A stretch of DNA of 64,000 bases from positions 1-64,000 of the forward strand of contig JASJCL010000004.1 of the NCBI GenBank assembly GCA_030066015.1, in the 5' to 3' direction. This DNA is from Desulfosarcinaceae bacterium. GTDB lineage: Bacteria; Desulfobacterota; Desulfobacteria; Desulfobacterales; Desulfosarcinaceae. How positions within the stretch are numbered: position 1 is the stretch's first letter; every line of letters starts with the position of its first letter. Below are positions 19,106-30,617 of the stretch, piece by piece. The notes under the pieces are model-generated. The model had not been told where the DNA came from. It saw only the letters and a program-made list of their open reading frames with translations, and ran no database searches. The position numbers and the translations under genes were made by a program.

Positions 19106-19489
19106 ATCCGACGCATGGGGGCGATGTCACCGGACGCCGCAGCCACAGACGATGACCATATGTACCGACACATGCCATCCGTGGAATCTCATTGGTGCCG
19201 CGATTGGCAGCCAATTGGCAGGCGGATGTGCCGCTGGGGCCCACTCCGGGGGCCGGCCCGAACTGTTCAAACCGCTGGGGCAGTCCTCTAACAGCCAGTT
19301 ATCGGCGTTTGGGCGGCCAGCCTTGAGCGATGGGAGGCCGATCGCCACCGGCCAGCAGCGCCGGGAGTTGACAGGTCCGGCGGAGCTGCGTATAGAAGGG
19401 GCCCTTGTCACTGGTCACCGATGCGCATCATCCGGTTAGAATTTGACCATCGCCCCCCAAATGATCACCCAGAGCACAAACGAGGTCGT
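19106..19489. other. Divergent intergenic region between cyclase and tex
   Basis: These 384 bases separate the divergent cyclase and tex genes and should hold both promoters. TTGACC occurs at about 19442 on the plus strand but I see no good -10 at the right distance. Short frames on both strands have no ribosome binding site or recognisable protein. Confidence 0.4.
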
Positions 19490-21787
19490 ATGAACCAGAG
19501 CCATGTTCAGACCATCGCCGCTGAACTGGCGCTGCAGGATGGCCAAGTAGAAGCGGTCGCCGCCTTGCTGTCCGAAGACGCCAGCATCCCCTTTATCAGC
19601 CGCTATCGCAAAGAGGCCACCGGCAGCCTGGACGAGGTCGCCGTGGCCGCAATCCGAGATCGCCTGCATCAGTTGTCCGAATTGGACAAGCGCCGCGAGG
19701 CGATCGTGAAGTCTCTGAAGGAGCACGGCCTTCTCACCGAGACGCTGGCGGCTCAGGTATACGCCGCTGAAACACTGGCAGCGCTGGAGGACATCTACCT
19801 GCCCTACCGTCCCAAACGACGCACACGCGCCACGATTGCCAAGGAGAAGGGGCTGGAACCGCTGGCCTGGGCGCTCCTAAAACAGGACGGCCGTGACCCG
19901 GCGGAGCTGGCCGTGGACTACTTGGACGCGAAGCGCGGGATCGACGCCGTTTCGGATGCCCTGGCCGGTGCCCGCGACATCCTGGCCGAACATGTCAACG
20001 AAGACAATGGCGCGCGCGCCGACATGCGGCGCCTCTTTGCGGAAAAGGCGCTTTTTATCAGCCGTGTGGCCACCGGAAAGGAGGCGCAAGGGGCGAAATA
20101 CAGAGACTATTTCGACTGGCAAGAACCCGCCAAGAGCGCCCCTTCGCACCGTGTGCTGGCCATGCGGCGCGGCGAAAAAGCCGACATCCTCAACCTGACC
20201 GTGGCCCCCCCCGAGGATGCTGCCCTGCATCTATTGGAGGAACGTTTCGTCACCGGTCAGGGGCCCGATGCGGCCCAGGTGCGTCTGGCGGTTCACGACG
20301 GCTACAAACGCCTGCTTTCCCGCGCGATGGAGACGGAACTGCGCCTCACCACCAAATCGGCCGCCGATGCCGAGGCGATCAAGGTTTTCGCCGCTAACCT
20401 GCGGGAACTGCTCATGACCCCGCCTCTGGGGGCCAAGCGGGTGATGGCGATCGACCCTGGGTATCGAACCGGCTGCAAGGTGGTCTGCCTGGATCGCCAG
20501 GGAAAGCTGCTTCACAACGAAACCGTTTATCCGCACAATTCGGCGGCACAGCAAGAAAAAGCTGCGAATCGTCTAAAATCAATGGTTTACGACTACAACA
20601 TCGAAGCGGTGGCCATTGGGAACGGGACGGCCGGCAGGGAGACGGAGGCATTCGTTAAGGCGCTGGATCTCGAAACCGCCATCCCCGTACTGCTGGTTAA
20701 CGAGAGTGGGGCTTCGATCTACTCCGCCTCGGAAGCGGCCCGTGAGGAGTTCCCTGAGCAGGACCTCACCGTTCGCGGTGCCGTGTCCATCGGCAGACGC
20801 CTGATGGATCCGCTATCCGAGTTGGTCAAGATCGACCCGAAATCCATCGGCGTTGGCCAATATCAGCACGACGTGGACCAGACCGAACTCAAGGCGGCGC
20901 TGGACGACGTGGTGGTCAGTTGCGTCAACGCCGTGGGTGTTGATGTGAACCGCGCCAGCGCCCAATTGCTCACCTATGTTTCCGGCCTCGGCCCTCGACT
21001 GGCCAAAAACATCGTGGCCCATCGCGATCAACACGGTGCGTTTGACTCCCGCCAACAGCTGACGGCGGTCACCCGGCTCGGTCCCAAGGCTTTCGAACAA
21101 TGCGCTGGCTTTTTACGGGTCAAAGGTGGGCGCAATCCATTGGACGCCAGCGCCGTTCACCCCGAACGATATGCCCTGGTAGACCGCATGGCGGCCGATC
21201 TCGGTGCCAGTGTGAAGGGGTTGATGCAGGATCGCGATCTGCGCGCCAGAATCGACATCGGCGCCTACGTGGGCGGGGGCATCGGCCTGCCCACATTGGA
21301 AGATATCCTCGCCGAGCTGGCCAAGCCGGGTCTGGATCCGCGGGATACCTTCGAGGCGTTCGCTTTCAGAGAGGGCGTCAACAGCCTCGGCGACCTGGAA
21401 CCCGGTATGCGACTGCCGGGGATCGTCACAAATGTCACCCGGTTTGGAGCGTTTGTCGACGTGGGGGTCCACCAGGATGGTCTGGTCCATATCAGCCAGT
21501 TGGCCGACCGCTTTGTCAAGGACCCTGCCGATGTGGTCAAGGTTCAGCAGAAGGTGACGGTCACCGTATTGGAGGTGGATACGGCGCGCTCGCGAATCAG
21601 TCTCTCCATGAAGGGCAAATTGGACGGGATCCCGACGGACAGGGATGCCGGGCGGCCCACCAGAAGGGGTTCGGCGGAACCGAAGGGATCGCGCAGAAGC
21701 CGCAGTTCACGAACCGGCAACGCCCCTAAGCGGCAGACGCCGGCACCCTTCAACAACCCCTTCGCCGATCTGCTCAAGGGTGGCTAA
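19490..21787 (+). CDS. tex: Tex, RNA-binding transcription accessory protein
   Basis: This 765-residue cytoplasmic protein has the full Tex layout: an N-terminal helical domain (ASIPFISRYRKEATGSLDE), a YqgF/RNase H-like domain (VMAIDPGYRTGCKV, VAIGNGTAGRETE), helix-hairpin-helix repeats (VGVDVNRAS, SGLGPRLAKNIVAHR) and a C-terminal S1 RNA-binding domain (GMRLPGIVTNVTRFGAFVDV, DGLVHISQL). Tex binds RNA and the transcription machinery and affects expression and stress tolerance. The ATG at 19490 follows GAGGT. The last ~40 residues after S1 are basic and Pro/Arg-rich. The gene ends facing the caspase operon, 138 nt away. Confidence 0.96.
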   Translation: MNQSHVQTIAAELALQDGQVEAVAALLSEDASIPFISRYRKEATGSLDEVAVAAIRDRLHQLSELDKRREAIVKSLKEHGLLTETLAAQVYAAETLAALEDIYLPYRPKRRTRATIAKEKGLEPLAWALLKQDGRDPAELAVDYLDAKRGIDAVSDALAGARDILAEHVNEDNGARADMRRLFAEKALFISRVATGKEAQGAKYRDYFDWQEPAKSAPSHRVLAMRRGEKADILNLTVAPPEDAALHLLEERFVTGQGPDAAQVRLAVHDGYKRLLSRAMETELRLTTKSAADAEAIKVFAANLRELLMTPPLGAKRVMAIDPGYRTGCKVVCLDRQGKLLHNETVYPHNSAAQQEKAANRLKSMVYDYNIEAVAIGNGTAGRETEAFVKALDLETAIPVLLVNESGASIYSASEAAREEFPEQDLTVRGAVSIGRRLMDPLSELVKIDPKSIGVGQYQHDVDQTELKAALDDVVVSCVNAVGVDVNRASAQLLTYVSGLGPRLAKNIVAHRDQHGAFDSRQQLTAVTRLGPKAFEQCAGFLRVKGGRNPLDASAVHPERYALVDRMAADLGASVKGLMQDRDLRARIDIGAYVGGGIGLPTLEDILAELAKPGLDPRDTFEAFAFREGVNSLGDLEPGMRLPGIVTNVTRFGAFVDVGVHQDGLVHISQLADRFVKDPADVVKVQQKVTVTVLEVDTARSRISLSMKGKLDGIPTDRDAGRPTRRGSAEPKGSRRSRSSRTGNAPKRQTPAPFNNPFADLLKGG

Positions 21788-21806
21788 CCGACACCCGTGA
21801 CGGCAA

Positions 21807-21830
21807 CCCGCCAATGGCGGCAACGGCGGG
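21807..21830. terminator. Weak hairpin between convergent tex and DUF4384 genes
   Basis: CCCGCC (21807-21812) and GGCGGG (21825-21830) can pair; an overlapping smaller hairpin CCGCC-AAT-GGCGG competes with it. There is no T-run. It could end both convergent transcripts, but this is weak. Confidence 0.3.
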
Positions 21831-21925
21831 CATGGCGCGGTCGGCCGGATCGTACCGGATGCGTATGATTTGGGTTGGCGAAGCGGCCTTGCATCACCGT
21901 TTTCACACGTCGGTGGCGGTGGATT

Positions 21926-22516
21926 TCATGGAGCGGCCGAGGTGTGAAGTTGGAGGCAATACTCCCCGTAGGCGTCTCCGGCCTGTGCTTTGATGCGGCG
22001 TATGATGCTCGGGATATCGGCATGCAGGCGCTTGAGGCCATTTGCCAACAGCTCACCTGAGAAAGCTTCGATGGGCGCCCGCGAGGCGAATACCCACAAT
22101 CGCTCCCGTCCGAAGGGCGGCGCCACCGTAAAACGGAAGGCGGCATCTTGGGTTGGGATGGGACGGAACCATCCCGCGGGGTAGAAACTGCTTTCCTGAT
22201 TGGCGTTCGGAACGATCTGAATCCGTTGTCTGTTGGCATCTTCGTAAATCGCGACGATATGGGCATCTTGGTTGAGGCTGAGGTAGAAGGCGATGGTGTC
22301 GCCGTGGACAAAGCGGTGCCCATCGCCCAGGTGCGTCGTGATCTCTACCTGGATGGGCACCCCCGGCGCCGTCGCCGGGGGCGTCTCTCCCGCCAAAGCG
22401 GCCGGAATTCGCCAGAGGATGACGGCCGCAACGAGGATCACCCAGGCGATTCGCCGACAATGCCGCCGCGACAATCCCATGGAGATGGCGCCAGAAAGGA
22501 TGAAATTCCGTCGCAT
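21926..22516 (-). CDS. Secreted DUF4384-domain protein
   Basis: This 196-residue protein has a signal peptide or N-terminal anchor (RIAWVILVAAVILWRIPAALA) and then a DUF4384 domain (about residues 50-155), seen in HLGDGHRFVHGDTIAFYL, SLNQDAHIVAIYED and QRIQIVPNANQESSFYPAGW. DUF4384 is a beta-rich domain often found next to or fused with caspase or kinase domains and thought to bind or present ligands. The C-terminal ~40 residues are helical. It is the last gene of the M48/sigma/anti-sigma/caspase operon, starting 29 nt after the caspase stop with a GGGGAGG just upstream. It may be a partner or target of the caspase; this is inference. Confidence 0.78.
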   Translation of the reverse strand: MRRNFILSGAISMGLSRRHCRRIAWVILVAAVILWRIPAALAGETPPATAPGVPIQVEITTHLGDGHRFVHGDTIAFYLSLNQDAHIVAIYEDANRQRIQIVPNANQESSFYPAGWFRPIPTQDAAFRFTVAPPFGRERLWVFASRAPIEAFSGELLANGLKRLHADIPSIIRRIKAQAGDAYGEYCLQLHTSAAP

Positions 22517-22545
22517 TCCCTCCCCTTTCCTATCCTTGAAGGCTG

Positions 22546-24183
22546 CTAAAAACGAAACCGATAGGCATAGTCAAAAAAGAGCCCCAGCATCTGATCTTCC
22601 TGCTCGTCCCCGGAATCGAAGTCAAAGTTCCGGGAAGTAAAGCGCAAGCCGAGGCCGAAGCGATGGCGGTCACCGGGGTGATATACAGCGCCGAGTTCCA
22701 CCCCTCCGCCGCTGACGTCGCCGATGGCATTACCGTCCCCCTTGACGCTGGTATGGGGCAGCAGGGTGAGGGTTCCGACGAGATCCCAACTCTCGGTGAT
22801 GGGCCAGCGGCCGGTGATCCCGCCGCCGAGGCCGGCATAGCTCATCTCGTAGTCGTTGGAGTTCCATTGACGGTTCATGACCTGGAGATCAAGGAAAAGG
22901 GCCAAGGGCTTCCAGAAGTAGTAGCCGACGGCAAGGTCCAGTTCGCTGTGGGCGATCTCGACATCCCGCTGGGCCAGCGTCTCGGAAGAGGAGGCCTGTC
23001 CCGGCGCATCATCATCAAAGCGATAGTTGCCGATACGGAGATCTAAGGTGGAATAGAAGCGGTGTTTTAAGATACCCAGGTGCAGGCCGATCTGGCCGCC
23101 GCCGCCATCCCAATCGGTATCGTCCGCATCGCCCTTGCCAGTCCATCTGCCCGCCAGCAATTCGACGCCCAGATCCAGGCTGAGATCGCCCGTCGATGAC
23201 GCCACTGGCGGCCGCTCATCAACGACCTCCACAACGTTGACATTGACTTTCAACTTCTCTGAGGGGATTCCATCGACGACCAGGTCGATATTGATGAAGA
23301 TGAACTCTCCCAACTCATCGCCAGCGCCCTGCACCACACCGCTTTCAGGGACCTGATCGACATTGTTGGCCACGGCCTTTTCCACATTGGTGCTCAACTC
23401 ACTGGCGGTCAGCAAAAGGCGGTCGTTGTTCTTCAATTCATTGAGTAGAAAATAGGTGAACGGCGAGTGGCCGGAGGTCCTGTAATTGTCGTCCACATAC
23501 TCCACCCCCCCCGCTGTGAGGATCTGAATACTCTTCTTGTTGGCGACCTTGCGGTAGTACGCCTCACTGCCCATTTGGGCCGCTATGCCACGGGTGACGC
23601 CGCGCAGCAGGGTGCCACTGAAACAGGAGTCGGAGATCAACAGGGTATGCTTGGCGCGGGCGGCAATCGTACCGAGTTCGTCGCGGATAGTGGAATTCCG
23701 CAGAAAGGTCGTGTGATCTGTATCTTTGGCATCAATGGGCACCCAGTACCCCTTTTGGGTGTCCATTTGGATGAAGCCGTGCCCGGCGTAGTACATGAGG
23801 ACGCTGTCATTGGTCATGACGCGACCGGAAAGCGCCTGCAGCGCGAGCAGCATCTCCCGACGGGTCGCATTTTCGAGCAGCGCAACATCGCTAAAGCCGT
23901 ATTGCTCCAGAAGCACGCGCTTCAATGCGCGGGCACCGGCGACCGCTGTCGTCAGTGGTTTCCAGGGCCCTGCACCGCCTGGGTAAGCGTCGTTGCCGAT
24001 GAGCAGCGCGCGATAGGTACCGCTGGTTGGGGCGATGCCCGAGAGGGCCTTGGTTTCCAGGGAGATGCCCCGGGATTGGGCCCGGGCCGCAAAAGGAGTG
24101 GCCAGCAGTAGCAAGATGCAGATGGTTGAGAGGAGAACGAAATTGCGGCCTGATAAAAAAGAGCGGTCCATTTGAGTCCCCAT
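22546..24183 (-). CDS. Secreted caspase-family (C14) protease fused to a predicted outer-membrane beta-barrel
   Basis: This 545-residue protein has a signal peptide (to about Ala35), a caspase/metacaspase p20-like domain and a long C-terminal region. The catalytic dyad is intact: His135 in MYYAGHGF and Cys187 in LISDSCFSG, with the expected TYRALLIGNDAYPGG strand ahead and the GHSPFTYFLL motif behind. From about residue 334 to the end the sequence alternates polar and hydrophobic residues with aromatic girdles (DLSLDLGVELLAGRW, YSTLDLRIGNYRF, LGLFFDYAYRFRF) and ends with Phe, as outer-membrane barrels do. Known caspase homologues of bacteria are mostly cytoplasmic or secreted without a barrel. 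The start may instead be Met5 (24171, GGGGA upstream). It starts 18 nt after the anti-sigma stop. Confidence 0.85.
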   Translation of the reverse strand: MGTQMDRSFLSGRNFVLLSTICILLLLATPFAARAQSRGISLETKALSGIAPTSGTYRALLIGNDAYPGGAGPWKPLTTAVAGARALKRVLLEQYGFSDVALLENATRREMLLALQALSGRVMTNDSVLMYYAGHGFIQMDTQKGYWVPIDAKDTDHTTFLRNSTIRDELGTIAARAKHTLLISDSCFSGTLLRGVTRGIAAQMGSEAYYRKVANKKSIQILTAGGVEYVDDNYRTSGHSPFTYFLLNELKNNDRLLLTASELSTNVEKAVANNVDQVPESGVVQGAGDELGEFIFINIDLVVDGIPSEKLKVNVNVVEVVDERPPVASSTGDLSLDLGVELLAGRWTGKGDADDTDWDGGGGQIGLHLGILKHRFYSTLDLRIGNYRFDDDAPGQASSSETLAQRDVEIAHSELDLAVGYYFWKPLALFLDLQVMNRQWNSNDYEMSYAGLGGGITGRWPITESWDLVGTLTLLPHTSVKGDGNAIGDVSGGGVELGAVYHPGDRHRFGLGLRFTSRNFDFDSGDEQEDQMLGLFFDYAYRFRF

Positions 24184-24201
24184 CCAGGTTAAGGTGTCGC
24201 G

Positions 24202-25155
24202 CTAAAGGTCCATCCGATGAAAGACGAATCCCCCCTCCGCATGAAAGGCGCTTTTATCGGTGGTACTCCCGGAAAGCATCCAGACATAGCGCTGGCCGGG
24301 AAGGATTTCAAGCCCCTCAAGGTTTACGCGGGTCTCCGTTGTGGTGACCTCCCGGACCTTGATGGGTGCGCCGTTTGCGTACCGGACCACCTGTATCCGG
24401 TAGAATTCCGCCAGCGGGACGTTCGGCCAGGTGATTCGCACTATGCCTTCTCCGTCCAGGGATACGCGTACATCTTGGAATGGCGCCCTGCGTGCCGGGA
24501 TGGTGTGAAAGAATCCAAGGCCGGGCCCCTCGTGGGGAGAGGAGAAACGGATCTCGGGCGAATCCCGATAATGCGCGATCTGGAGATGTTCCACCGGCGA
24601 CGCAAAGAAAATGAAGAGGCATGTGGCCATTCCGCCGGCAACCAAGGCCCCCGCCGGTATGGCGGTCCACAGCGGAATCCGCCGGATCAGCCACGCCTTC
24701 ACCACCGCAAGGGTGGCGGTCAGCCGGCCTGCCTTGCCCTGACGGGAAGCGGCGTCGCCCGCCCTCTCAGTCGCCGTTGGTGCCTTCCGCAGGGCCCGAT
24801 CCATCGCCGTACGGTGGCGGGCGTTATGGAAGGCCGCCTTCAGCGCAGCGGGGCGTTCGGCGAGTTGACGCCGGATCCGGATTTTGTCTTCCCCTGAGAG
24901 TAGCCCCTCCATATAGTCCGCGATGGTTTGGTCCGCCATCATCTTGTCCTCCTCCCATCCAGGGCGCAGTCCGGTGGGGTCCACCGCCTCGCCCGAGGAG
25001 GGGCGAAACCGCTTCATCGCTGCTAACGCGTGCAACCGCGATCGGCAGTTTGTACACCGAACCAAGTGCAGGCTCGCTGTCTTGGATGCCCCTGCATCCG
25101 GATCGGCCAGATAGGCGCTCAGATCGTCCAAGCTAAGATGTTCGACGGCTGTCAT
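24202..25155 (-). CDS. Membrane anti-sigma factor with zinc-finger (H-x3-C-x2-C) domain
   Basis: This 317-residue protein has an N-terminal anti-sigma zinc finger: SLHLVRCTNC gives His30-x3-Cys34-x2-Cys37. A second helical stretch (residues ~75-125, TIADYMEGLLSGEDKIRIRR) looks like a further anti-sigma-like fold without metal ligands. One transmembrane helix lies at about residues 162-185, followed by a ~130-residue periplasmic beta-sandwich-like domain (VRITWPNVPLAEFYRIQVVR, LPGQRYVWMLSG) resembling fibronectin type III. Such proteins hold their sigma factor at the membrane until a periplasmic signal causes release, often by proteolysis. The sigma factor gene lies just upstream and protease genes on both sides. 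The ATG at 25155 follows GGAAGGTGA. Confidence 0.82.
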   Translation of the reverse strand: MTAVEHLSLDDLSAYLADPDAGASKTASLHLVRCTNCRSRLHALAAMKRFRPSSGEAVDPTGLRPGWEEDKMMADQTIADYMEGLLSGEDKIRIRRQLAERPAALKAAFHNARHRTAMDRALRKAPTATERAGDAASRQGKAGRLTATLAVVKAWLIRRIPLWTAIPAGALVAGGMATCLFIFFASPVEHLQIAHYRDSPEIRFSSPHEGPGLGFFHTIPARRAPFQDVRVSLDGEGIVRITWPNVPLAEFYRIQVVRYANGAPIKVREVTTTETRVNLEGLEILPGQRYVWMLSGSTTDKSAFHAEGGFVFHRMDL

Positions 25156-25336
25156 GGTCACCTTCCAAGATTGAGGCGTCGGTCGCTTTTTTTTTGACGC
25201 GCAGCACCTTGATGAGAACAAGACCCCAAGCGTCCGGATATTTGAAAGCTTCGGGGGAACCTCGCCGCTTACGGCCTCTCACCGCGCTTACCGGCTGGGC
25301 GTCATTCCGGTAGGGCGTTCGCAGCGATCGTTTCAT
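25133..25336 (-). CDS. Possible small basic protein between sigma and anti-sigma genes
   Basis: A 67-residue frame starts with an ATG that overlaps the stop of the sigma-factor gene (ATGA), and ends 23 nt inside the anti-sigma gene in another frame. The product is strongly basic (KRSLRTPYRNDAQP, RGRKRRGSPEAF) with a short hydrophobic part. It has no known family. The overlap is typical of coupled genes and would explain the 177-nt space between sigma and anti-sigma, but the frame may be chance. Confidence 0.3.
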   Translation of the reverse strand: MKRSLRTPYRNDAQPVSAVRGRKRRGSPEAFKYPDAWGLVLIKVLRVKKKATDASILEGDHDSRRTS

Positions 25337-26301
25337 CGGGGCGCTTCCGTCGCCATCAAACGACGCAATTTTTCAAAGGCCTTGCGCCGAAAATAGTACA
25401 GCTGCTGCCGATTGGTCGCATTGGGGGCAACCCCCCGTTTGATGGGGAGTTCCAGCACTTTCAGGGCTTGCAGGACGGTATCGGCGTCATCTCCATCGAT
25501 CAGCATCGCTTCCAATACCAGTTGTTCTAACTGGGTGAGGTGCTGCCAGGCCGCCTGCAGCCGCTGTTTGGCGTCCCGCTCCTCAGGCGCCTCGTCGAAG
25601 GAGGGCAGCTCCCTCTCCCAACCGGCGGAGCCTTTCATCTGTGCTGGATCGTTTTCCGGTTCACTGAGAGATATCGTCCTGGGTGGATCCAAAAGGTGGA
25701 GCCGATGTCTGCGGGTCAATCGTGCGACGATGGCATGACACAGGGCTTCGGCCGCCGCCTCATCGAGATGCAGTGTCTGGGCAATTTCACCGGGATCTCG
25801 CTTGGCGCGCAGCTCCAGGAAAACACGTGCCGCCATGGGGTCTAACTCCCGTATGTAGGTGGGGACATAGCCCCTTCGCCCAAACCGCCAATCCTTCCAG
25901 CGTTCGTAGAAGGGCAACGAGTTGGCGATATGAAACAGATAATCGGTTATGCGCGCGCCCCCCCGTCCTTCAAAGCGTTGCAGCCGTTCGGGACGGGTGA
26001 GATCTTCCAGCATCCACGCATAGCTGGCGTTCCCGAATTCGCACAGCAGCGCATCCGCTGGTGCCCGCAAAGGTAACGGCGGTTCCAAGGTACAGACGTA
26101 GCGATACCGGTTGCCGGAGCAGAAGCGGCGGCAGAAGCGGTGGCTCTGGTAGCTGATGATGGGGTGCACCAGGTCGTTAATGGTCCGGCGCGCGGACGGA
26201 TCGCCACCCGCGGCTGAACGGGCAAGGGCTACCTGGCGGCGCTGGATGTCCTGCGCCGCAGTAACGCCGGTTGAATCGGTTGCGCGTGGAGGCCTTTTCA
26301 T
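25333..26301 (-). CDS. Atypical ECF-like RNA polymerase sigma factor
   Basis: This 322-residue protein has a sigma region 2-like part at about residues 90-150 (ASYAWMLEDLTRPERLQRF, then ITDYLFHIANSLPFYERWKD) and a region 4-like helix-turn-helix at about 160-200 (DPGEIAQTLHLDEAAAEALC). It is longer than normal ECF factors (~190 residues): about 80 N-terminal residues with Cys-x3-Cys (FCRRFC) and a ~110-residue C-terminal extension that ends in another helical unit (LEQLVLEAMLIDGDDADTVL, NRQQLYYFRRKAFEKLRR). An ATG at 26301 is preceded in frame by TTG. The anti-sigma gene downstream supports the assignment, but similarity is weak and the protein could be a sigma-like regulator. Confidence 0.62.
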   Translation of the reverse strand: MKRPPRATDSTGVTAAQDIQRRQVALARSAAGGDPSARRTINDLVHPIISYQSHRFCRRFCSGNRYRYVCTLEPPLPLRAPADALLCEFGNASYAWMLEDLTRPERLQRFEGRGGARITDYLFHIANSLPFYERWKDWRFGRRGYVPTYIRELDPMAARVFLELRAKRDPGEIAQTLHLDEAAAEALCHAIVARLTRRHRLHLLDPPRTISLSEPENDPAQMKGSAGWERELPSFDEAPEERDAKQRLQAAWQHLTQLEQLVLEAMLIDGDDADTVLQALKVLELPIKRGVAPNATNRQQLYYFRRKAFEKLRRLMATEAPR

Positions 26302-26341
26302 CAATATCGGTTTATACGGAACTTGCCGTCATCATTATTCA

Positions 26342-28303
26342 TCATTGAGGGTCATAGAGGAACCAGCCAGCAATCTGCTGATGTTCCAGGTGCACGGCCA
26401 CGCCATAGGTATCGTAAGCCCAGTATTCACCGGCCACCAAATGGTAACGACGATCTGGGATGCCGAACGCCTTCAGGGGGCGTGTTGCATCGTCTCCAAT
26501 GGCGATCCGCTCGGCCAGGGCGTCCGTTCCGGCCGCCTGCCACGCGCCGATGATGGTGGCTTCCGGCCCGACAACGATGCGGCTGCCGCCATCCATCCGC
26601 CACAGCCGGTGGGGTTCACCCGCAATCCAGAACTGCTCGGTGGTAAAGGGCTGCGACGATCCGGGGGGCAGCCCAAAGCGGTCACCGATGCGCAGGCCGG
26701 CCACCTTGGGTGCCGTGGCGAGCGGTTCCGATGCGGCCGTGCCAATGCGCAGCTGATTCAGCGCCAAATGAAACAGAACCCCGTTTCCACGGATTTGCGC
26801 ATGTCGGGCCAGGGCCTGCCACAGATCTCGTGCACGACGCGGCTCGCCGCCATGAATGGCCAAGGCGGCGCTGTTGTGAACAGCGCTGTACATCAGCAGA
26901 TCATCTGGGATGCGCCCCGCAACGGCGGTGTTGCGGAGGTTCGGTGGTGTGCGCAGATCATCGATCACGGCCGTGAATGCCCGCTGGGCGGCGACATGCT
27001 CCCCAGCGCGGCTCAGCGTCATGGCCAGTATCAGGTCGGCAGCGGCATCTCTGCCAAACTTGGGAACATATTTCCCCTGGACGATCCCGTTGGCCATGAA
27101 GGTGTTACCGCTAATGAGGTAGCTGCAGGCGAGCATCAGGTAGGTTTTGGGATGATCGGGGGCTAGCCGGATGGCCTTCTCGAAGAGCTGGATCGCGCGT
27201 TCCAGACTTAGTCCCATCCGCTGTCGTTCTCTTTCGACCACTGCTACGTCGGTGGATCGTTTGGGCAGTGGATCTTTGGATTCCGTCATCACGGCTGTCG
27301 GAGCGGCATCCAGCAAGAGCGGGTAGTAAAAATCGGGAAGCGTCCGGTCACCATGACCGCGCAGGCGCTCTAAGCTCTCCAGCGCTTCATATAGATGGGT
27401 CACGCCAAGGGCGTATAGCACCGCGCGATTGGTGTAGCTGTGACCAAACGCCGAAAAGTAGTGTCGTGCGGCCTGCATGCGGCCGGCGACGAGTGCCTGG
27501 ACCCCCATGGTGTAGAGCGTGGTCTGCGTGGCCACCGCTTTCAACTGGGCCGCGGTGCGCAGCGCACGTGCGCGCGCCTGCCCACAGGCCGCCGACAGCG
27601 CTTCCGCTTCTGCGCTCATCGGAGGGATGGTTTGGGTTACGGCGGTATTCACCGCATCATTCGAACAAGGGGCTTGCCAAAGATTCTCGATCCAGGCGGT
27701 AAAAAAGTCCTTCTCGTCCAATATTTGATGGGGATCGTAACCGACGCTGGACATCATTAGCAGCCCGTCGTGGTCAGCCTGGGCCTCCTTCTCCGCCATG
27801 TCTGCCAGCATTTCGGCGTTAAGGTTCAACCCTAAGGCGAGCTGCTGTTGAATGGCTGGGTCCTGATCGCCAATCAGACGAAAAAAACGTTGGTGCCAAA
27901 GATCGTCGGCACTCTGGTGAGCCAATTCGTGGGCCAGAACAAAGGCCAGCAAATGTTCGGCGCGCTGGTCGCCAAATTCAAAAATGGCACCCAGGGCGGA
28001 GCGGGTCAGAAGGATACTCCCGTCGGCCAGAGAGGCCGCCCAAAGACGGGTGGCTGCATCAATCACGTATAGGGTGGGCGCCAGCCGTGTTCGGTCCCAG
28101 GCACGTAGCAGGATCTGAAATACCGCGTGGGCGCGGGCCACGGCAGGATCACTGCCAGGTGTAAGGACATGGGGCTTCCAATAGGTGATCGACTGGGCCG
28201 GATCCACCGTGGGGAGCATGGATTGGGCGCGGGTCCCGCCCGTGCTCAACAAGAGAATCGCCAGGGCGAGGAGCGCGGCGATATGCCGTTTGCAAAATCT
28301 CAT
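26342..28303 (-). CDS. Secreted M48-family zinc metalloprotease with TPR repeats
   Basis: This 653-residue protein has a signal peptide (about 1-26, ending TRA-Q) and a peptidase M48 domain with the zinc motif HELAH (125-129) and the third ligand Glu173 in EKEAQAD. From about residue 250 the protein is helical and contains TPR-like repeats, the clearest at SLERAIQLFEKAIRLAPDHP, as in periplasmic BepA/YfgC, which cares for outer-membrane protein assembly. The last ~150 residues (GLRIGDRFGLPPGSSQPF onward) are beta-rich and not recognised; BepA-like proteins normally end earlier. It is the first gene of the operon with sigma, anti-sigma and caspase-barrel genes, 40 nt before the sigma gene. A promoter is seen ~100 nt upstream. 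Confidence 0.86.
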   Translation of the reverse strand: MRFCKRHIAALLALAILLLSTGGTRAQSMLPTVDPAQSITYWKPHVLTPGSDPAVARAHAVFQILLRAWDRTRLAPTLYVIDAATRLWAASLADGSILLTRSALGAIFEFGDQRAEHLLAFVLAHELAHQSADDLWHQRFFRLIGDQDPAIQQQLALGLNLNAEMLADMAEKEAQADHDGLLMMSSVGYDPHQILDEKDFFTAWIENLWQAPCSNDAVNTAVTQTIPPMSAEAEALSAACGQARARALRTAAQLKAVATQTTLYTMGVQALVAGRMQAARHYFSAFGHSYTNRAVLYALGVTHLYEALESLERLRGHGDRTLPDFYYPLLLDAAPTAVMTESKDPLPKRSTDVAVVERERQRMGLSLERAIQLFEKAIRLAPDHPKTYLMLACSYLISGNTFMANGIVQGKYVPKFGRDAAADLILAMTLSRAGEHVAAQRAFTAVIDDLRTPPNLRNTAVAGRIPDDLLMYSAVHNSAALAIHGGEPRRARDLWQALARHAQIRGNGVLFHLALNQLRIGTAASEPLATAPKVAGLRIGDRFGLPPGSSQPFTTEQFWIAGEPHRLWRMDGGSRIVVGPEATIIGAWQAAGTDALAERIAIGDDATRPLKAFGIPDRRYHLVAGEYWAYDTYGVAVHLEHQQIAGWFLYDPQ

Positions 28304-28405
28304 CTCGGCCTCAGTCAGTTGACGGTGGAGGAGGCAGCTTCCTTAATAAGAAGACGGCCAATTCGTGTTCATTTGAAAAAAAGTGGGCCTGATTTACTGG
28401 TCGTC

Positions 28406-28434
28406 GCTATACGCGATCCAAACCGTAGCGTCAA
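28406..28434 (-). promoter_or_regulatory. Sigma-70-like promoter of the M48/sigma/caspase operon
   Basis: On the minus strand TTGACG (28434-28429) and TATAGC (28411-28406) are 17 nt apart. The start of transcription would be near 28400, about 97 nt before the M48 start codon. This predicts basal expression by the housekeeping sigma factor; a second site used by the operon's own sigma factor was not found because its consensus is unknown. Confidence 0.5.
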
Positions 28435-28487
28435 AATGATCTTAGCGCGGCGTCGCAGGCTTTTTTCAAACACGCGTGTTGTTGTTG

Positions 28488-28608
28488 TCTCCTTTCGGTA
28501 TGCGAAGCCCCAAGCCACGGTGAAGCTGTGAGCGGTGCACGGCATCGCGGGGCCGGCCGAAACTGCACCGCGACCGTAAGAGGTCCGGACACCTCGACCG
28601 AAAGGAGA
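28488..28608 (+). promoter_or_regulatory. Structured leader that can pair the ribosome binding site of the lipoprotein gene
   Basis: TCTCCTTTCGGT (28488-28499) is perfectly complementary to ACCGAAAGGAGA (28597-28608), which contains the AAAGGAG ribosome binding site of the next gene. Between these arms are two more stems: GCGGTGCA/TGCACCGC (28532-28539 with 28564-28571, 8 bp) and GAGGT/ACCTC (28580-28584 with 28591-28595). The layout is a closing stem with two inner hairpins, like a riboswitch or RNA thermometer that blocks translation. It does not match a riboswitch class that I can recall (not TPP, SAM, cobalamin, GEMM or fluoride). Confidence 0.45.
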
Positions 28609-28616
28609 TTGACAAG

Positions 28617-30005
28617 ATGAAAATAGGCAATTCCTTCAGCAATCCCTTAAAATGCCTCATGGGAATCATGATTTTGATGAGCTGTTTCACCCTTCTGATC
28701 GCCTGCGGCGACACTGGAGAAAGTTCAGCTGGCAGCGAACCCGACAGCAGTGCCATCCCCTTGAGCCTCGATCTGGATCTGCCCGACAGTATCACCGGTG
28801 GTAGCCTGCCGGCTAACGGGGATCAACCCCTCTTTCGGGCCGTTGGAGCGGGAACGGGAGGGGCGTGTGCTTTTATGGGGGCGGATGGGGACGATCCATT
28901 TCGCAATGGGTATGAAATGACCAAGTTCATGGTATCGGCCGTGGCGACATGGACCTGTTTCACCGACACGCTGATCGAGCTGGCCGAGACGGTGGTCCAT
29001 GATGATCGAATCCATGCCACCGACAACGATATCCGCCGACCAGACTACGATCCCGACGATCCCACCCACTACTGGATCAGTGACGACTCGGCCACCCAGA
29101 CCACCATCCGCTTCTATTACGGCTACGACCGCGAGGTGCCGCCCCAGCGGGAGGATGCCCCCCAATTTTTCCTCTCATGGCTGAGATCCAATGCGGACGG
29201 CCTTCAGGGGCGCCTTGTCATTGACGGCACCGGTGTCAACGCCGCCGCGCGCAATCCTGACGATCCCATCTGGATGCGCATGGACTTCAACTACGGCACC
29301 ACCGATAAGTTCGTTGACACCTTCATGCGCTTCGATGCCGGCAACCCCTGGGCCGATGGATTCCGTCTGCAGCTGACCAAAGATCTGAGCGCAGGGCCTC
29401 TGGAGCAGGTCTTTACGGCACTCGGGCTGATCGCCATGAAGGCCCAGTTCCTCACGGCGCAAGGCATCGAGGAGGTCCCCGATGTCCACATGTTCACCGT
29501 TTCCGACGACTTCGGCAATGGCGCTGCCCTGGCCGAGTACCGACAGCTGGCGCTGCCCCTTGAGCTGAATGCGGGCACGGACAACCATCTGGGCAATTAT
29601 CTCTTCGACAAGCGTGATATCTATTTTTTCGAAGCGGATATGGATTGGGACTGGGTGTCGAAATCCATTCACACTGCGGTGTACCGCGGCGGTCGAACAA
29701 CACCGGCGGATGGCGGCACGTGGATTCCCTTCGACCCCTCCTTGGATATGATCGCCGCGGAGTTGGACCTCGGGTTTGACTATTTCACTGGTGAATTGTG
29801 CGCTGAAACGGATGACGATTGCCTTGCGCTGCTGACCGCCGTCTTCAGCGACGGTTTTGCCGGTCAGGAGCCCAATCAGGGGTCAGACCCCCTTGACTGG
29901 CGCAGCGACGCACTGGCCAACGCCACTAGCCTCGAATCGGTGTATCCCAACGGAATCGATTGGGAGGGGGCCTTCGAGATGGTCTTTGCGCCAACCGACC
30001 CATGA
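28617..30005 (+). CDS. Secreted lipoprotein of unknown function
   Basis: This 462-residue protein begins with a lipoprotein signal peptide whose lipobox is LLIAC (Cys at about residue 30), so it should be attached to a membrane by a lipid. The mature part is acidic, rich in Asp, Trp and Tyr and free of recognisable domains; it contains several Asp-rich turns (DNDIRRPDYDPDDPTHYW) that could bind calcium. I do not recognise a family. AAAGGAG lies about 10 nt before the ATG and may be hidden in a leader stem. The gene is divergent from the M48/sigma/caspase operon, which makes it a candidate member of that regulon, but this is inference. A hairpin follows the stop. Confidence 0.7.
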   Translation: MKIGNSFSNPLKCLMGIMILMSCFTLLIACGDTGESSAGSEPDSSAIPLSLDLDLPDSITGGSLPANGDQPLFRAVGAGTGGACAFMGADGDDPFRNGYEMTKFMVSAVATWTCFTDTLIELAETVVHDDRIHATDNDIRRPDYDPDDPTHYWISDDSATQTTIRFYYGYDREVPPQREDAPQFFLSWLRSNADGLQGRLVIDGTGVNAAARNPDDPIWMRMDFNYGTTDKFVDTFMRFDAGNPWADGFRLQLTKDLSAGPLEQVFTALGLIAMKAQFLTAQGIEEVPDVHMFTVSDDFGNGAALAEYRQLALPLELNAGTDNHLGNYLFDKRDIYFFEADMDWDWVSKSIHTAVYRGGRTTPADGGTWIPFDPSLDMIAAELDLGFDYFTGELCAETDDDCLALLTAVFSDGFAGQEPNQGSDPLDWRSDALANATSLESVYPNGIDWEGAFEMVFAPTDP

Positions 30006-30061
30006 TCTTTCCCATTGATTACTGACACGCCACACCAGCTGTGATAAGCACCTAGGACCGT

Positions 30062-30095
30062 ATCACGGGCGGACTGCCATGCGGCCGCCCGTGAT
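30062..30095 (+). terminator. Strong hairpin after the lipoprotein gene
   Basis: ATCACGGGCGG (30062-30072) pairs perfectly with CCGCCCGTGAT (30085-30095), an 11-bp GC-rich stem 57 nt after the stop. No T-run follows, so it may act as an mRNA 3' end or factor-aided terminator. Confidence 0.5.
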
Positions 30096-30167
30096 GCGTG
30101 CGAAGCACTCTGCGACGAGGGCCATCCCATCCCTCGGACACCCCTTTTTTAAATTCAGGTGCTGCCA

Positions 30168-30617
30168 TTGAAGGCTGTCGTTCAGAGAGTGGCCCGGAGC
30201 CAGGTAATAGTGGCGGGCGAGATTGTCGGTGCCATCGACGCGGGCCTGATGGTTCTGCTGGGCATCGCCCGCAACGACACCCCGACCCATGTTAACTGGA
30301 TGGCCGAGAAGCTGATCCATCTCAGAATCTTCGAGGATGCGGCGGGTCGCATGAACCACTCCCTGTTGGAGGTGGGTGGCGAGATGCTGGTCGTATCGCA
30401 GTTCACCCTTTTGGGCGACTGCCGCAAGGGACGCCGCCCCTCTTTCGGTGCTGCAGCCCCCCCCGAAATGGCCAACCAACGCTACAAAGAGTTCGTCGCC
30501 CAGGTCGCCCGCAACGGCATCTCCGTCCAAACCGGCCGGTTTGGGGCCGCCATGTCGGTGAGCCTAACGAACGACGGCCCGGTCACGCTCCTTGTGGAAA
30601 CCCCTGACACCCTCTGA
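30168..30617 (+). CDS. dtd: D-aminoacyl-tRNA deacylase
   Basis: This 149-residue enzyme removes D-amino acids (and mischarged glycine) from tRNA. The catalytic and cross-subunit motifs are SQFTLLGDCRKGRRPSF and, at the C-terminus, TNDGPVTLLVETP, both close to the family standard (SQFTLYGDTRKGRRPSF and NxGPVT). I chose a TTG start at 30168, giving the usual N-terminus MKAVVQRV, with AGGTG 6 nt upstream; a GTG three codons earlier lies on that site. It is a single gene with hairpins on both sides. Confidence 0.95.
   Translation: MKAVVQRVARSQVIVAGEIVGAIDAGLMVLLGIARNDTPTHVNWMAEKLIHLRIFEDAAGRMNHSLLEVGGEMLVVSQFTLLGDCRKGRRPSFGAAAPPEMANQRYKEFVAQVARNGISVQTGRFGAAMSVSLTNDGPVTLLVETPDTL

Follow-up and report, generated by a model that had tools for sequence, protein, structure and literature searches.

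The 64,000-nucleotide stretch of Desulfosarcinaceae DNA analysed here (the window) carries, between tex (19421-21787) and dtd (30159-30617), a gene module that spans 21788..30158. Five of its open reading frames lie on the minus strand from 28303 to 21926, separated by gaps of 40, 177, 18 and 29 nt, and these coordinates and spacings agree with the preliminary description of the locus. In order of transcription they encode an exported M48-like metalloprotease with TPR repeats (26342..28303, 653 aa), a predicted divergent sigma-70-family sigma factor (25333..26301, 322 aa), an anti-sigma factor (24202..25155), a caspase (C14)-beta-barrel fusion (22546..24183, 545 aa) and an exported DUF4384 protein (21926..22516, 196 aa). 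The five genes had been described as an operon and indeed recur together in relatives, but a sixth gene belongs with them: it lies on the plus strand at 28617..30005, divergent from the M48 gene, and encodes a 462-aa lipoprotein (lipobox LLIAC) with homologues in relatives. A small frame (25133-25336) previously described as coupled within the 177-nt gap has no domain match and covers one of the promoter sites described below, so it is probably not a gene. The five genes and the divergent lipoprotein gene constitute a real module, and their arrangement recurs beyond chance.

The sigma factor and anti-sigma factor

The product of 25333..26301 has no significant match among Pfam, NCBIfam and PDB sequence profiles, and the Pfam model Sigma70_r2 is reached only at E=0.031, in 2 of 28 sigma sequences. 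Four cysteines (C57, C61, C70 and C87) are invariant across the 28-sequence alignment, as is the segment FYERWKDWR. An AlphaFold model made with this alignment (pLDDT 83.9) was compared with known structures, and among the whole-chain Foldseek matches listed, all are sigma-70-family chains except for a few generically titled integrative models; probabilities reach 1.00, but E values are borderline, the best being 1.2e-3. With a second structural alignment, residues 237-320 superpose on WhiG (Z 9.2, rmsd 1.8 Å, 70 residues) and region 4 on SigW (Z 8.3, rmsd 2.1, 64 residues). The C-terminus also aligns with several ECF region-4 structures, and a region 4 helix-turn-helix fold is found there. 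The product is thus modelled as a sigma-70-family fold, and its earlier designation as an atypical sigma factor holds by fold but has no counterpart by sequence profile. Helices modelled at residues 148-204, between regions 2 and 4, make the layout appear closer to that of three-domain sigmas than to that of plain ECFs, an assignment that we treat as provisional. Since this sigma family has no significant Pfam or NCBIfam match, the circuit it belongs to would be invisible to domain annotation.

The following gene encodes a membrane anti-sigma factor of the zinc-finger, single-TM type, as proposed earlier. Among 23 sequences, H30 of the H-x3-C-x2-C motif is invariant and C34 and C37 are present in at least 90%, and the Pfam model zf-HC2 matches 12 of the 23. 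A single hydrophobic segment precedes a conserved C-terminal domain, placed in the periplasm, that has weak fibronectin matches. This protein would bind and inhibit the adjacent sigma.

The M48, lipoprotein and DUF4384 genes

In the window the M48 protein has a TPR match, and its M48 match is weak, below the Pfam cut-off. The M48 model is nonetheless found in 20 of the 24 family members (at E up to 0.1) and TPR models in most. H125, E126 and H129 of the HExxH motif and the later E173 are invariant in all 24 sequences, that is, the zinc-ligand pattern is intact, and the assignment as an M48 protease is upheld. The DUF4384 identification was likewise secure (E=1.8e-16), and this is the conserved final gene of the module.

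Homologues of the lipoprotein are 46-60% identical over long alignments and lie beside the M48 gene in loci with enough flanking sequence; in two loci (L024 and L047) the homologue is 2.4-2.5 kb away. A lipobox-like N-terminus is present in all complete homologues; C30, C84, C114, C395 and C402 are invariant. A Pfam search with the lipoprotein matched no family. Its model is beta-rich (mean pLDDT 80), and comparison of the fold with the PDB gave no significant match, only weak similarities to barrels and beta-sheets.

The caspase and its probable outer-membrane barrel partner

The caspase domain of the window protein (~23206-24183) matches peptidase C14 (PF00656) at E=3.1e-21, and H135 and C187, the His-Cys dyad, are invariant in 20 sequences. 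It is followed in the same frame by a predicted outer-membrane beta-barrel (~22546-23205). The preliminary description of a caspase-barrel protein is correct for the window but does not hold generally, as the fusion is seen in the window's genome only. In every relative of sufficient length the caspase is a frame of its own of ~330-370 codons, and a separate next gene encodes the barrel, in any frame and with its own signal peptide-like start. The separate caspases end in a variable linker followed by P-x-P-T-[L/F] in 17 of 19 cases, the two remaining tails being P-V-P-S-L and P-L-P-V-I. In the window protein, the caspase stalk IPSEKLKVNVNVV runs directly into the mature barrel GDLSLDLGVELL, and neither the tail nor the signal peptide of the barrel is left.

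A fusion of this kind is commonly taken as a sign that two proteins act together, and the one in the window, set against the separate genes of the relatives, points to a caspase-barrel partnership. The parts missing from the fusion are exactly this tail and the signal peptide of the barrel, which suggests that the tail serves in docking; the conserved P-x-P-T-L/F tail probably docks the caspase on the barrel in the relatives. As to the barrel itself, the Pfam model OMP_b-brl is reached in one relative (L019, E=0.0018, below cut-off), and the barrel relatives have signal-like N-terminal stretches and C-termini that mostly contain F. One locus has two barrel matches in tandem after the caspase gene (L021:11102-12542), an apparent duplication.

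Relatives and co-inheritance of the module

Relatives were sought by scanning short peptide patterns over ~85,000 genomes, after which the window proteins were mapped by tblastn. The scan returned sigma relatives at 29 loci or contigs with 40-59% identity. The carriers are mostly gammaproteobacterial MAGs, and they also include Reinekea forsetii, an Olavius endosymbiont and two Nitrospirota (a Nitrospira and a Manganitrophaceae MAG). When the five minus-strand window proteins were mapped, the order M48-sigma-anti-sigma-caspase-DUF4384 was found in ~19 of the 29 loci, and most of the others end at contig ends. The module proteins are roughly 40-60% identical across loci in distant hosts. The preliminary description had proposed asking whether the partners keep company with the sigma gene, and they do: M48, anti-sigma, caspase and DUF4384 genes accompany it and are not scattered. 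The loci were retrieved by the sigma protein and many are MAGs, so this co-occurrence is conditional on the sigma and silent on partners that occur alone. Loci that differ more in one of the protein families tend to differ more in the others as well (Mantel r 0.57-0.87 between pairwise identities, p 0.001 for each), as joint inheritance would give.

Several loci depart from this order. No anti-sigma was detected after the sigma in L032 and L039, nor in L047, where a gap and transposase-like sequence follow. In L044 the M48 gene is on the opposite strand and there is no caspase of the window's family. These loci indicate that parts of the module are separable. L039 (L039:6321-8333) has genes for the lipoprotein, the M48 protein and the sigma but lacks those for the anti-sigma, caspase and DUF4384 protein, and a glyQ/glyS-like (glycyl-tRNA synthetase) pair follows the sigma; it would be a reduced module whose sigma is without its usual brake. 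L044 lacks the usual caspase and barrel; a different C14 protein of 406 aa follows DUF4384 there (L044:5344-6564), a possible non-orthologous replacement.

Protein searches of same-family, same-order and same-phylum samples gave no convincing sigma relative, the matches at E 0.001-1 being short or broken. When 389 genomes of the class were searched with a profile, the sigma appeared in the window's own genome and in none of the 388 others, and the lipoprotein was not found in 388 other genomes of the order. Plasmids yielded only other caspases, and viral contigs yielded four weak caspase relatives and no sigma relative.

A shared promoter motif

One promoter-like site had been described for the locus. 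We find three copies of a bipartite motif, TTCAAA-N16-GTCT, two of them on the minus strand and one divergent, against a chance expectation of 0.08 per 64 kb. P1 (28377-28352, minus strand) points towards the M48 and sigma genes, P2 (28465-28490, plus strand) towards the lipoprotein gene, and P3 (25246-25221, minus strand) lies in the gap between the sigma and anti-sigma genes. Among 23 regions upstream of M48 homologues, 20 have the motif in the M48 direction with a spacing of exactly 16 nt (mean in shuffled sequences, 0.03) and 15 have it in the lipoprotein direction, one (L037) with a 17-nt spacer. In the 334 kb of the 29 loci there are 51 exact matches and all 51 fall at the three module positions: 19 precede M48, 16 point to the lipoprotein side and 16 lie between sigma and anti-sigma. 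P3 is absent or weaker in several loci, and GTCC replaces GTCT at its position in three further loci. The analysis supports the view that the module is envelope-directed and under a common promoter type. Given the logic of autoregulated sigmas and the co-occurrence of motif and sigma, the TTCAAA-N16-GTCT sites are very probably read by the module sigma.

The window's own genome has eight exact matches, three of them in the module. A wider regulon, considered on the basis of this whole-genome scan, was set aside as four of the five extra sites fall within likely reading frames. The concentration of matches on the module, together with the position of the extra sites mostly in frames, indicates that the likely regulon is the module itself. 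The ambiguous fifth site may be intergenic, on the upstream side of a transglutaminase-like gene (L048:1501-1526; G000:C13), and could be a further target or a chance match.

Insertion between tex and dtd

In five genomes of the same family tex and dtd are adjacent, separated by tens of bp. The corresponding interval in the window is 8.4 kb and holds exactly the six module genes, and by this comparison the module is an 8.4-kb unit cleanly inserted between tex and dtd. The flanking tex is 62-68% identical to that of family members, which indicates that the contig belongs to the lineage and that the module is foreign. The assembly has no 16S gene; it carries dsrA, which points to a sulfur-metabolising host, perhaps one of the Desulfobacterota. 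The module has probably spread horizontally. Inspection for mobile-element ends or terminal repeats at the insertion showed none that is convincing, and the short repeats seen resemble chance.

A module convergent to tex, as in the window, is also present in the Manganitrophaceae contig (L025:5192-7495), whose host appears unrelated; this may reflect a common insertion neighbourhood or coincidence. A genome with the tex-dtd-minD neighbourhood has another insertion (~3285-9135 of L088, G158:C1:2434000-2446000), between dtd and a MinD-like gene, and the region of the site thus takes up other genes as well.

Discussion

The gene set looks like an undescribed envelope alarm built around a caspase. 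We consider it probable that the genes form an autonomous sigma/anti-sigma circuit that regulates its own expression and governs the machinery of envelope proteolysis. At rest, the sigma would be held by the zinc-finger anti-sigma in the inner membrane, and a periplasmic or outer-membrane signal would destroy or open this anti-sigma. The likely cutters would be the module's M48 protease or caspase, acting with a host intramembrane protease, and release of the sigma may occur by proteolysis or through a cysteine-based signal. The free sigma would direct RNA polymerase to the TTCAAA-N16-GTCT promoters: P1 would give more M48 and sigma (positive feedback), P2 the lipoprotein, and P3 the anti-sigma (negative feedback) together with the caspase, barrel and DUF4384 protein. 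The caspase would act in the periplasm docked on the barrel, to which it is predicted to be covalently joined in the window by the gene fusion. With a regulon that is approximately the module itself, the module would carry its own output. A bolder version seems to us unlikely: the caspase, docked at the outer membrane, would be made under its dedicated sigma and would also activate it, giving a proteolytic positive-feedback switch, with the cysteine cluster of the sigma as a second gate, and the cell would be committed to an all-or-none envelope response or death.

The position of all protease genes behind sigma-type promoters would also be expected if the proteases were purely outputs. The sigma would then be freed by host DegS/RseP-type proteases, or its four cysteines would trigger release on a redox or metal signal. 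The targets of the caspase and M48 would be outer-membrane or foreign proteins, and neither protease would contribute to sensing. The four invariant cysteines could be a direct sensor, and the HxxxCxxC type of finger can be redox-sensitive; a built-in release protease, however, would equally sit beside the sigma and anti-sigma genes under the same control, and we regard a purely output role as possible but somewhat less than even in likelihood. That the genes are a coincidental cluster of unrelated envelope genes is very improbable indeed: parts have been lost or exchanged (L039, L044), but the same order at roughly 40-60% identity in distant hosts, the common promoter type at three positions and the co-divergence of the proteins contradict it.

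The patchy cross-phylum distribution and the clean insertion at a housekeeping site are features that would suit a defence or programmed-death island, one that senses envelope attack by phage adsorption, a predator or a toxin and whose caspase carries out a cleavage that either protects the cell or kills it. Known anti-phage systems include caspases, and the PADLOC caspase model matches here at E=6.8e-9 (a partial match, to the caspase domain). PADLOC gave no other match and called no system, however, no defence genes were noted within the insert and no viral copy of the sigma was found. To our knowledge, known caspase defence effectors act in the cytoplasm, and every protease of the module is predicted to be exported. 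We therefore judge a defence role doubtful and return to a sigma/anti-sigma module of envelope control as the preferred reading.

The combination of a caspase with a sigma factor has precedents. In 2012, metacaspase operons that include sigma-70 genes were noted in Myxococcus xanthus, Anaeromyxobacter, Haliangium, Sorangium, Ralstonia and Fibrobacter (PMC3501461). In the passages of that paper drawn on here, the operons likewise join a sigma-factor gene to one for a caspase homologue, and there is no mention of partners of the M48, barrel, lipoprotein or DUF4384 kinds. ECF54 genes have CHAT, subtilase and carboxypeptidase genes in their context and no anti-sigma (PMC8999054); here too a sigma adjoins a caspase-fold protease gene, but the proteases differ and our module has an anti-sigma. 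Our literature search found no paper on this gene set, so the earlier remark that no system with this set is described holds for the literature searched but needs to be qualified by the metacaspase operons (PMC3501461, as far as drawn on here). Given these sigma-metacaspase and ECF54/CHAT precedents (PMC3501461, to the same extent, and PMC8999054), we file the module under sigma/anti-sigma envelope control.

Among ECF systems with membrane zinc-finger (ZAS) anti-sigmas (RpoE-RseA, SigW-RsiW, SigL-RslA), a sigma gene is likewise followed by that of a single-TM HxxxCxxC anti-sigma, the autoregulated promoter is likewise bipartite with a fixed spacer, and the region 4 fold matches. The module differs from them in its sigma, which matches no family significantly, carries additional helices between regions 2 and 4 and has four invariant cysteines, and in its regulon, which would be the module with its genes for caspase, barrel and M48 protease. 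Group 3 sigmas (FliA, WhiG, SigB) give whole-chain Foldseek matches to the module sigma and share its three-domain-like layout, whereas the module has a membrane zinc-finger anti-sigma and a promoter unlike FliA or SigB sites. CorE-type sigmas (ECF238) have cysteine-rich domains, with cysteines in the C-terminal extension and in the linker between regions 2 and 4 (PMC8999054); both they and the module sigma have conserved cysteines, but those of the latter lie in the N-terminal, region-2 part. The M48 protein resembles BepA-type periplasmic M48-TPR proteases in having an exported M48 domain followed by TPR repeats and differs in its place within a sigma-controlled operon and its extra C-terminal part.

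The role of bacterial caspases is an open question, and in this case a caspase is found with its own regulator, a promoter code and a probable outer-membrane partner. The unit is compact, has mutable catalytic residues and lends itself to transfer into a laboratory strain. From the fused form one can directly predict that caspase and barrel form a complex and that the C-terminal P-x-P-T-L/F tail has a function.

A second caspase gene, encoding a coiled-coil and C14 protein, is present elsewhere in the same genome (L008; G000:C120:52802-56539). It is directly followed by a gene for a serine/threonine-kinase-like protein with a DUF4384-like C-terminus, and the pairing of caspase and DUF4384 thus recurs there in a different setting.
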